A stretch of DNA of 32,360 nt from the NCBI GenBank assembly GCA_028823035.1, contig JAPKCI010000052.1:1-32360 (forward strand), in the 5' to 3' direction. The translations under genes and the position numbers were made by a program. The notes beneath the pieces were generated by a model. It had not been told where the DNA came from and made no database searches. It saw nothing but the letters and a program-made list of their open reading frames with translations. Source of the stretch: Rubripirellula sp. Lineage in GTDB: Bacteria > Planctomycetota > Planctomycetia > Pirellulales > Pirellulaceae. Positions 30,281 to 32,360 of this stretch are shown here, piece by piece (positions within the stretch are counted from its first letter, which is position 1; each line of letters opens with the position of its first letter).

Positions 30281-30772
30281 TCAGCGACTCTTGGCGGCGT
30301 AGACTTCCGCGTACTCGATCGCCCACACGTCGATCATTTGCTCGAAATCCTCGACCTCCACTTCGCCCACAGCGACATAGTGACTGCGGTTGAACAATTC
30401 ACGGTTCATCACCGTGCCCTTGCCCTTGAGGTCCAGGACATTCAAATCGGTATGCGGCCGGATGACCATCTCAAGCCGACTGTACTGGTTCGTGCGCTGA
30501 CCCGATATGATCCGCAGATCGTCGCGAAAACAGGCTGACCCCCAACCCACTTCACCAAACAGCGATTCAATCTGAAATCCGGGGAAGTGGTCCGCCACAC
30601 GATTGATCGCCGTTTCGATTCGATCAGAAAGCGATAGACGACAGGACGTATGCAATCGCCTCAGCTCATCAGCACTGAGTTCACTTTTTCGTTGCTGTGT
30701 AGCTTTGACATCGGCGCGACGCTGACCACGAGAGATCGCCGATTCCAACCGCGATTCAAATTCGTCATTCAT
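30281..30772 (-). CDS. Unknown 163-residue soluble protein coupled to the S1-domain gene
   Basis: I do not recognise the family. The protein is soluble, without signal peptide or membrane segment. The N-terminal third is charged and helical in appearance (FESRLESAISRGQRRADVKATQQRKSEL), and the C-terminal part looks alpha/beta (RLEMVIRPHTDLNVLDLKGKG, then NRELFNRSHYVAVGEVEVED). Its ATG overlaps the stop of the upstream S1-domain gene as ATGA, so the two are probably translationally coupled and may work together, for example on RNA. That role is inferred from context alone. Confidence 0.8.
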   Translation of the reverse strand: MNDEFESRLESAISRGQRRADVKATQQRKSELSADELRRLHTSCRLSLSDRIETAINRVADHFPGFQIESLFGEVGWGSACFRDDLRIISGQRTNQYSRLEMVIRPHTDLNVLDLKGKGTVMNRELFNRSHYVAVGEVEVEDFEQMIDVWAIEYAEVYAAKSR

Positions 30773-32360
30773 AACGTGGGATTATCCGCTTCTGGAGACG
30801 ATTCGGCAGGGGGCGAATCGGGATCATCCTGGTCCTTGGATTCTTGCTTCACCTCGGAAGCCTGCGGAGTCACCTGAGAACTATCTGCTTCTCCTGACGA
30901 GGCTTCGGGGCCAGCTTCAACAACCCCACTAGAAGTGCGTTCGCCCTCGCTTGACGCGGGGTTGGCTGGTGTCGCTTTATCATCCTGACTATCGGATGCT
31001 TCGACCTGCTTCGAATCGACCTCCGCGACTGGCTTCTCTGGCTTCTCTGTTTTCTTTGTTTTCTTTGTTTTCTTTTCCTCAACCTCGGGCGCAGTATCAA
31101 AGAACTGCAACAAATCACCGAAGGAACGCAACGGCTCGTCACCCTTCTGCATTGCATCGGTGATTGGTTTCGTCTCTTTTTTACCGACGACACGATAGGA
31201 GTCAGGTTGTTTATCGCGAGAACGGCCTCCGCGTCCGTCTCGCCCGCGGCCACCATCGCGTGAACGGCCTCCGCGAGCTTGATCACGCCCACCACCCTGT
31301 CGGCCGCCGGTTGCTCCGGCTCGATCACCACTTCCTTGGCCACCGCGGGCTTGACCACCCTGACCACCGCGGGCTTGACCACCCTGACCACCGCGGGCTT
31401 GACCACCCTGACCACCGCGAGCTTGACCACCCTGACCACCGCGAGCTTGACCACCCTGACCACCGCGGGCTTGACCTTGACCTTGACCTTGACCTTGACC
31501 CTGACCTTGACCTTGACCCTGGCCTTGACCTTGACCTTGACCCTGGCCACTGCGGGCTTGAAAACTGCGAGCCGAACCACCGTGTGACCGATCGTCACGT
31601 CTCCGCTTTGCCTCTTCCAACTCGGCTTCCCGCTGGGGTGACACTGCGCTCAGAGCAACCCGCCGACGTTTTTCGTCGATGCCAGTAACCCAAGCGGTCA
31701 CGATGTCACCAACTTGTAATGCCTCGTGAAGATCCTCGACGTAAGAATCCGAAACACGACTGACATGAATCAGACCACTGCAGTCGGGAGCCAACTCGAC
31801 GAACACACCAAATGGCATGACCCCAACCACCACTCCGATAACGGAATCACCAGACTTCAGAGCCTTGATCGACGGCATGGTACTGAGTACTGCGGGCGGG
31901 TACCCGGTACTGTCACTGTCACCAAAAGGATCACAAAGCCATTGCACCAACTGATTCGCGCGTTTGGCACCGATTTGCCATTCTTTTACACACTTGTCAA
32001 TTTTTGATTGCTCAGGGCGAGCCCGACGAATACGTTCAGCAACATCAACAGCCACCACGGTCTGCGAAACGGTGTCCCCTTCAGCGGCCGAATCTGCAAC
32101 TACCGCTTTCGGAGCAGACGAAGTCTCGTCGGTAGTGACCGATTCCAATTCTTCGGTCACTGTCTCAGCACTATCCGCTGTCTCAGCAGAGGAAGCATCT
32201 GCCTCAGGCACGTCTACCTCTGCACCCGACTTGTCTGCACCCGACTTGTCTGCACCCGACTTGTCTGAGGAGGCCACCTCAGTGGACTCTGCTTCAACCT
32301 CCGCTGTTTCAGCCTCAGTTTCAGTCGCTGTTTCAGCCTCAGTTTCAGCCTCAGTTTCAG
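30769..32360 (-). CDS. S1-domain RNA-binding protein with long Gly-Gln and RGG repeats (5' end outside window)
   Basis: The frame is open to the right edge, so the N-terminus is missing; the GTG at 32277 is probably internal because acidic ETEA repeats continue upstream of it in frame. In order: acidic repeats, three DKSGA-like repeats, an acidic Ser/Thr/Glu stretch, a helical segment (KCVKEWQIGAKRANQLVQWL), an S1 domain (SIKALKSGDSVIGVVVGVMPFGVFVELAPDCSGLIHVSRVSD...VALSAV, broken here for length), a Gly-Gln run of about 13 GQ, six RGGQGGQA-type repeats, an RG/RD-rich region, a short conserved-looking motif (RSFGDLLQFFDTAPEVEEKK), Lys-rich KTKKTEKPEKP and an acidic tail. The S1 domain resembles that of Tex and ribosomal S1 proteins. 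A role in RNA binding is likely; the repeats look disordered. Confidence 0.88.
   Translation of the reverse strand, partial: ETEAETEAETATETEAETAEVEAESTEVASSDKSGADKSGADKSGAEVDVPEADASSAETADSAETVTEELESVTTDETSSAPKAVVADSAAEGDTVSQTVVAVDVAERIRRARPEQSKIDKCVKEWQIGAKRANQLVQWLCDPFGDSDSTGYPPAVLSTMPSIKALKSGDSVIGVVVGVMPFGVFVELAPDCSGLIHVSRVSDSYVEDLHEALQVGDIVTAWVTGIDEKRRRVALSAVSPQREAELEEAKRRRDDRSHGGSARSFQARSGQGQGQGQGQGQGQGQGQGQGQGQGQARGGQGGQARGGQGGQARGGQGGQARGGQGGQARGGQGGQARGGQGSGDRAGATGGRQGGGRDQARGGRSRDGGRGRDGRGGRSRDKQPDSYRVVGKKETKPITDAMQKGDEPLRSFGDLLQFFDTAPEVEEKKTKKTKKTEKPEKPVAEVDSKQVEASDSQDDKATPANPASSEGERTSSGVVEAGPEASSGEADSSQVTPQASEVKQESKDQDDPDSPPAESSPEADNPTL
31342..31470. repeat. 24-bp in-frame repeat, over five copies, coding GQGGQARG
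   Basis: Units start at 31342, 31366, 31390, 31414 and 31438, with a partial sixth from 31462. Each begins accgcgggc or accgcgagc. The copies differ at only one position, so the array expanded recently. On the minus strand it encodes the RGGQGGQA repeats of the S1-domain protein. Confidence 0.95.
31471..31548. repeat. 6-bp in-frame repeat, 13 copies, coding Gly-Gln
   Basis: Thirteen hexamers run without interruption: ten ttgacc, one ctgacc and two ctggcc. All encode Gly-Gln on the minus strand. The near-identity suggests replication slippage; length may vary between strains. Confidence 0.95.
32221..32265. repeat. 15-bp in-frame repeat, 3 copies, coding DKSGA
   Basis: Three identical copies of tgcacccgacttgtc encode DKSGA-type repeats in the N-terminal part of the S1-domain protein. 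Beyond them, from about 32306 to the edge, six-base and twelve-base units (gtttcagcctca) encode an acidic ETEA repeat. Confidence 0.9.

Follow-up and report, generated by a model that had tools for sequence, protein, structure and literature searches.

The closest described relatives of the gene analyzed in this work are the Tex proteins (Tex/YhgF/PA5201), and eukaryotic Spt6 is reported to have a Tex-like core in common with Tex (PMC13289920). E. coli YhgF (Tex) has been described, in a paper citing other work, as binding mRNAs, tRNAs, and sRNAs (PMC11066096); it is also reported to interact with sigma-70 and to overlap with the nucleoid in one medium, an overlap which was absent in another (PMC13298495). 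For P. aeruginosa Tex, the S1 residues F668, F671, H683, and R718 have been reported to take part in RNA binding (PMC6832287). A further account of the P. aeruginosa protein states that it represses by binding promoter DNA and has no post-transcriptional effect (PMC13340108), which counts against an RNA mechanism. 

The window, i.e., the whole stretch of 32,360 nucleotides from Rubripirellula sp. analyzed here, is the complete contig C384, and it ends in a minus-strand frame which is open at the window edge, so that the gene runs off the end of the contig. This frame (529 aa; 30769..32358, minus strand) is about the last third of one gene, the 5' part of which lies on contig C389 of the same genome; we have given this divergent Tex-like gene the label tex2. 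The right end of the window and the left end of C389 are identical over 31 bp inside a stretch coding for the acidic repeat TETEAETEAE, and the assembly break falls within this 12/24-bp acidic-coding tandem repeat (32306..32360, minus strand), the last 31 bp of which are the start of C389. Joining C389 to the window gives a frame that stays open over 1,449 aa, counted from the likely Met, a length which is provisional in its repeat copy number because the assembly broke at this point. In the same-genus relative L047, which has an open frame of 1,327 aa, the first two thirds align to C389 at 67-69% and the remainder aligns to the window at 65% and 61%. A scan of a collection of genome contigs gave 6 loci, two of which (L037 and L038) were Tex-like planctomycete matches. 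An earlier note on this DNA had described positions 30769-32360 as a protein with an S1 domain and a Gly-Gln/RGG region; the frame itself is real, but it is not a whole gene, and its product is no stand-alone protein but the C-terminal portion of a transcription accessory protein of the Tex family. At the opposite end of the contig, positions 1-58 hold three copies of a 19-bp tandem repeat, perhaps another assembly break. Upstream of tex2 on C389 there is an RNase Y-like gene (3182-4763; L116), named by eye from its sequence. Besides our own locus, RNase Y adjoins tex only in L037, L044, and L047 among 62 loci, some of which have short flanks, and a reading of this adjacency in terms of an RNA degradosome was dropped given the restriction of the arrangement to these four.

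The tex2 protein is a member of a divergent, RG-tailed subfamily of Tex, the bacterial relative of Spt6, and not a new kind of protein. The domain order on the joined contigs is Tex_N-like, YqgF, HhH, and S1, with one acidic linker before YqgF and one before S1. The C389 part matches the Pfam model Tex_YqgF (PF16921) at 47.3 bits (cut-off 27). In a Pfam scan of L047, the closest relative, Tex_YqgF, HHH_3, and S1 all exceeded their cut-offs, with the HhH model PF12836 at 29.1 bits (cut-off 27), and the tex2 core aligns to L047 at 67%; Tex_N (PF09371) reached 30.5 bits in L047, just under the cut-off of 32. A profile seeded on the N block of tex2 also matched the short Tex proteins and YhgF, at 202-234 bits, and L047 aligned to P. 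aeruginosa Tex (2oce/3bzc) in three collinear stretches with the order of the solved Tex. The tandem SH2 found at the C-terminus of Spt6 was not detected when L047 and the window part were scanned with Pfam. The S1 domain on its own was tried as a diagnostic and rejected, its best NCBIfam and PDB matches being GSP13-type proteins, ribosomal S1, and Rrp5. The same genome encodes a second, short Tex on contig C411 (749-aa frame, 190.1 bits) which stops right after S1.

The single S1 domain recognized in the earlier note was recovered at 31648..31857 (minus strand; residues 168-237 of 529) with 55.4 bits for PF00575 against a cut-off of 22. Together with the conserved segment preceding it, it forms a block running from IDKCVKEW to VALSAV (31642..31989, minus strand) which is conserved among the relatives. 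In the window protein the counterparts of Tex F668, F671, H683, and R718 are F183, F186, H198, and R233, the same amino acid in each case, in a mapping based on the PDB match to 3bzc, which covers 92 residues on both sides and was taken as gapless. Because all four of these reported residues are kept, RNA binding by the tex2 protein is well supported at the level of sequence, and the proposal of an RNA-binding protein made in the earlier note gains further from the tail described below, with its net charge of +16. Among 61 rows (the 60 relatives plus our own) a regular expression for FG.F..H..R missed only L054, L057, and L065; with a stricter expression applied to the same rows the His position was His in 55 and Arg in 3, and the remaining 3 gave no match. 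In the divergent sub-clade of L054, L057, and L065 the RNA-contacting His of S1 is replaced by Arg.

The distribution of tex2 was addressed with 60 of 66 family hits, leaving out G004, G054, G062, G078, G095, and G106; of the 119 genomes sampled, 52 remained without a hit to this query at 1e-20, and a PF16921 match was lacking in 12. L137c was excluded because a wrong frame had been picked, and the relative G106, which is not among the 60, has two stops inside its match, pointing either to an error of sequencing or to a broken copy. In a rapidly built tree of 82 rows of core plus S1, without bootstrap, tex2 and 35 relatives formed a divergent clade (SH-aLRT 100), 25 rows an extended clade with a support of only 83, and 21 rows, YhgF among them, a short clade (support 99). 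The rooting of this tree is unsure, as long branches meet at the deep joins, and a possible sister relationship of the extended and divergent clades rests on the C-terminal motif and the neighbor gene they share, not on the tree. Outside the family the comparison took in 25 further Tex proteins, of which 13 belong to the same order and 12 to the rest of the class. In all 25 the linker before S1 measures 25-39 aa, whereas its median length is 134 aa (range 33-228) in the extended clade and 167 aa in the divergent one, and a long acidic linker before S1 thus looks like a feature of the family. The linker before YqgF was net-negative in all 57 sequences measured and the one before S1 in 59 of 60. 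Long Tex proteins also occur in genomes of families f12 and f13, including G404, G450, and G511 (L198-L200), mostly as frames of about 1,000-1,360 aa in which the YqgF model matches only in part, with two matches in each genome, as though the domain were split by an insertion. Five f5 genomes (G454, G471, G492, G541, and G542) were without a Tex_YqgF match though listed as at least 95% complete.

The part of tex2 in the window is acidic at both ends, as had been observed before: the C-terminal part of the linker between HhH and S1 (31990..32358, minus strand; residues 1-123), which is broken by the contig end and carries the repeats TETEAETEAE and DKSGA, has 34 D/E and 10 K/R in 123 aa, and the acidic C-terminal extension (30772..31098, minus strand) has 27 D/E and 13 K/R in 109 aa. 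Between them lies a basic tail of 154 aa (31180..31641, minus strand; net +16) with 25 R, 54 G, 29 Q, and 2 aromatic residues, 8 RGG, and 16 RG/GR, which is presumably disordered, judging by this composition. It contains a (GQ)x13 array encoded by a 6-bp repeat (31471..31548), an array of RGGQGGQA encoded by a 24-bp repeat (31327..31467), and an RG/RGG stretch (31207..31335), all on the minus strand. The 13 GQ dipeptides and the RG-rich stretch agree with the earlier description, which had also counted about six RGGQGGQA units; five of these are full and the sixth is only partial. At the DNA level the arrays are tandem repeats, with the 24-bp unit present 5.7 times at 98% match and the 6-bp unit 12.2 times at 91%. 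Shuffling the 529 aa 2000 times gave GQ runs of 2 at most, compared with 13 observed, so the array is not due to chance. The C389 part of tex2 holds further short coding repeats, NKADA and DADPQPA.

The repeats singled out by the earlier note did not hold up in the orthologues as exact arrays: RGGQGGQA was found in 0 of the 60 relatives, the longest GQ run among them was 3, in a single relative (L079), and the number of GQ dipeptides in the tail is 24 in tex2 against 0-18 in the relatives. What was retained is RG-richness, with at least one RGG in the tails of 35/35 divergent relatives and at least three in 29/35. Orthologues without the repeats, which the earlier note had named as its refutation, are therefore what we observe for the GQ and RGGQGGQA arrays, and not for RG-richness in the divergent clade. 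These divergent tails have a median length of 117 aa, 20% R, 30% G, and a net charge of +10 to +18. The 25 extended tails are mostly K/R-rich, with a median of 61 aa, 17% R, 15% G, 10% K, and a net charge of +6 to +20, and only one of them has three or more RGG. The tail is net-positive in all 60 relatives (+6 to +20), so that the basic charge is common to both clades and RGG-richness is the mark of the divergent one; at least four RGG were also seen in the tails of L077, of the extended clade, and of L171, L172, and L200 from outside the family.

A conserved C-terminal motif, KPITDAMQKGDEPLRSFGDLLQFF (31099..31170, minus strand; model match 31099-31179), lies between the RG stretch and the acidic extension and had been overlooked in the earlier note. 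The pattern GxxP[LM]RxFxxLxQ was present in all 61 sequences (60 relatives plus our own) of this 27-column motif, and six of its positions were invariant throughout, namely 13 (G), 16 (P), 18 (R), 20 (F), 23 (L), and 25 (Q). A motif search of seven genomes produced one strong match in each (58-67 bits) with a runner-up at 17 bits. At the threshold used the motif was absent from 19 short Tex proteins, from the short Tex of our own genome, and from YhgF. Outside the family it scored at least 25 bits in 11 of the 13 Tex proteins of the same order and in none of the 12 from elsewhere in the class, six of which had a weak match (10-23 bits) and six none; three of the latter stop within 7 aa of S1.

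Downstream of tex2 is orf163 (30281..30772, minus strand), which encodes a conserved protein of 163 aa without known family; its start and the stop of tex2 have 4 bp in common. The order tex-orf163 was seen in 33 of 35 divergent and 15 of 25 extended loci, with both genes on one strand in 48/48, and 21 positions, the GWG and SRxE positions included, were invariant among 25 sequences. No credible relative was detected in Pfam (best E 0.0038, OrfB_IS605, in 4 of 25 members) or in the PDB (best E 0.037, 2rff), and an AlphaFold model built from two sequences was of no use, with a mean pLDDT of 42. The gene is single-copy and present in 75 of 393 genomes of the phylum, 74 of these in one class. An obligate Tex partner would be too strong a description, orf163 often being unlinked to Tex: no Tex was found in 12 orf163 loci of family f11, where G183 and G196 are without any PF16921 match, and the f5 genomes G454, G471, and G492 likewise carry orf163 without a PF16921 match. 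In some f11 genomes orf163 adjoins a KDPG aldolase gene.

We consider the best explanation to be that the window encodes the C-terminal third of an Spt6-like transcription accessory protein from a divergent branch of the Tex family, and we assign a probability of roughly 0.6 to this reading with the following mechanism included. Since among the literature matches listed there was nothing on a planctomycete Tex or its tail, an absence which is no proof in itself, every functional step would rest by analogy on distant relatives. The Tex core would be located at or near RNA polymerase or the nascent RNP, and the S1 groove and the arginine-rich tail would bind single-stranded RNA, with the tail adding avidity without sequence specificity. 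As pure conjecture, the acidic linkers might serve as long, flexible tethers and screen charge, holding the tail away from both DNA and the core as long as no RNA is present, and the C-terminal motif might dock on a protein partner. The GQ and RGGQGGQA arrays would be a recent repeat expansion inside the tail, and selection would act on the charge and RG content of the tail and not on its exact sequence. The YqgF face, altered at fixed positions in the divergent clade, would have gained what we infer to be a new contact surface, and in most divergent-clade genomes the standard job would fall to the short Tex. In line with such a division of labor, a further short copy (PF16921 matches) is present in 26 of 35 divergent as opposed to 8 of 25 extended genomes (Fisher p 0.0016, a value not phylogenetically corrected, in which the divergent clade is one event).

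It is the YqgF domain which could give rise to a very different interpretation. In the divergent clade (36 rows including our own) DPGxR has mostly become DAVGP, the first D being kept in 36, P replaced by A in 34, and R by P in 34, while in SEAGAS Arg stands in place of Glu in 36/36 and Asp or Glu in place of the last Ser in 36/36; the Glu replaced by Arg is conserved in the extended clade (24 of 25) and in the short clade (21 of 21). The loss of these signature residues could mark a decaying paralogue, redundant beside the short Tex, which is indeed present in 26 of 35 divergent genomes. We regard such decay as very improbable: the replacements are themselves fixed, which suggests a new function rather than decay, identity between the tex2 protein and L047 over core plus S1 is 89%, and in 9 of 35 divergent genomes, not all of them complete, the divergent copy is the sole PF16921 match and therefore does not require a short Tex.

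For the repeats, it may be that replication slippage simply expands linkers which need nothing beyond flexibility and a rough charge. The presence of many short coding repeats in one gene (GQ, RGGQGGQA, DKSGA, and ETEA in the window, NKADA and DADPQPA on C389) fits such neutrality, as do the arrays being tandem DNA shared with none of the 60 relatives, and we give this reading serious weight at somewhat less than even odds. However, different genera have in common the charge sign of tail and linkers, the C-terminal motif, and, within the divergent clade, RG-richness, so that the regions as such are not neutral, and neutrality probably holds for the GQ and RGGQGGQA arrays alone. A further reading, compatible with the accessory protein so that both can hold together, is that the protein forms condensates, RNA, the basic RG tail, and the acidic blocks coacervating and concentrating the transcription or RNP machinery in foci. 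The conservation of blocks of opposite charge speaks for it, and a charged disordered insertion is reported to make Rho of B. thetaiotaomicron condense with RNA (PMC13269538); by this analogy, RNA-driven coacervation of the tex2 protein is possible. Against it, aromatic residues are few (median 1 per tail, range 0-6, in the 35 divergent relatives) and the extended tails are shorter and poor in RGG, and as a reading of the protein's role we find condensate formation rather doubtful. The 2 aromatics in 154 aa of tex2 argue, as far as composition goes, against aromatic-driven condensation of the FUS/LAF-1 kind and not against charge-driven coacervation with RNA.

A bolder proposal, which we put forward as a long shot, is that Pirellulaceae-like planctomycetes evolved from Tex a second, Spt6-like elongation or RNP factor in which the remodelled YqgF face, the acidic linkers, the RGG tail, and the invariant docking motif would together give rise to an RNA-dependent assembly on nascent transcripts, orf163 being its co-translated partner. 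If true, eukaryotic Spt6 and RGG-type RNP granules would have a bacterial parallel in such a factor. Tex is widespread in bacteria, and here YqgF, linkers, and tail have changed together with one short motif staying fixed. The motif offers a direct handle for finding the partner and the tail one for RNA binding, and the natural series from no tail through K/R and RG tails to the GQ/RGG array would allow a test of RG tails in bacteria.

In comparison with known systems, B. thetaiotaomicron Rho (BtRho) is similar in combining a conserved bacterial transcription factor with a charged disordered region containing short conserved motifs; it is a different protein with a KE-rich insertion near its N-terminus, and condensation has been shown for BtRho (PMC13269538), being no more than a possibility for the tex2 protein. 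Tex/YhgF/PA5201 is much closer, with Tex_N-like, YqgF, HhH, and S1 domains in the same order and the same RNA-binding residues in S1, and E. coli YhgF (RRGGG...) and P. aeruginosa Tex already have a short tail containing Arg and Gly. The tex2 protein differs from YhgF in its length (about 1,450 versus 773 aa), its acidic linkers, its RG/GQ tail of 154 aa, and a C-terminal motif not found in YhgF, and from Tex/YhgF in the YqgF domain, where DPGxR is changed to DAVGP and SEAGAS to DRxGAD. An RNA-binding tail rich in RGG/RG is also found in eukaryotic proteins such as FUS, LAF-1, and the hnRNPs, and RGG proteins which form condensates generally have aromatic stickers among their RGGs. The tex2 tail has the multiple RGG/RG repeats (8 RGG and 16 RG/GR in 154 aa) and, with two aromatics over the same length, lacks the stickers, making this a likeness of composition only. 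Spt6 too has acidic disordered segments, which may be a parallel to the linkers of tex2; in tex2 these segments are internal linkers, no SH2 match accompanies them, and the protein carries an RG tail instead.
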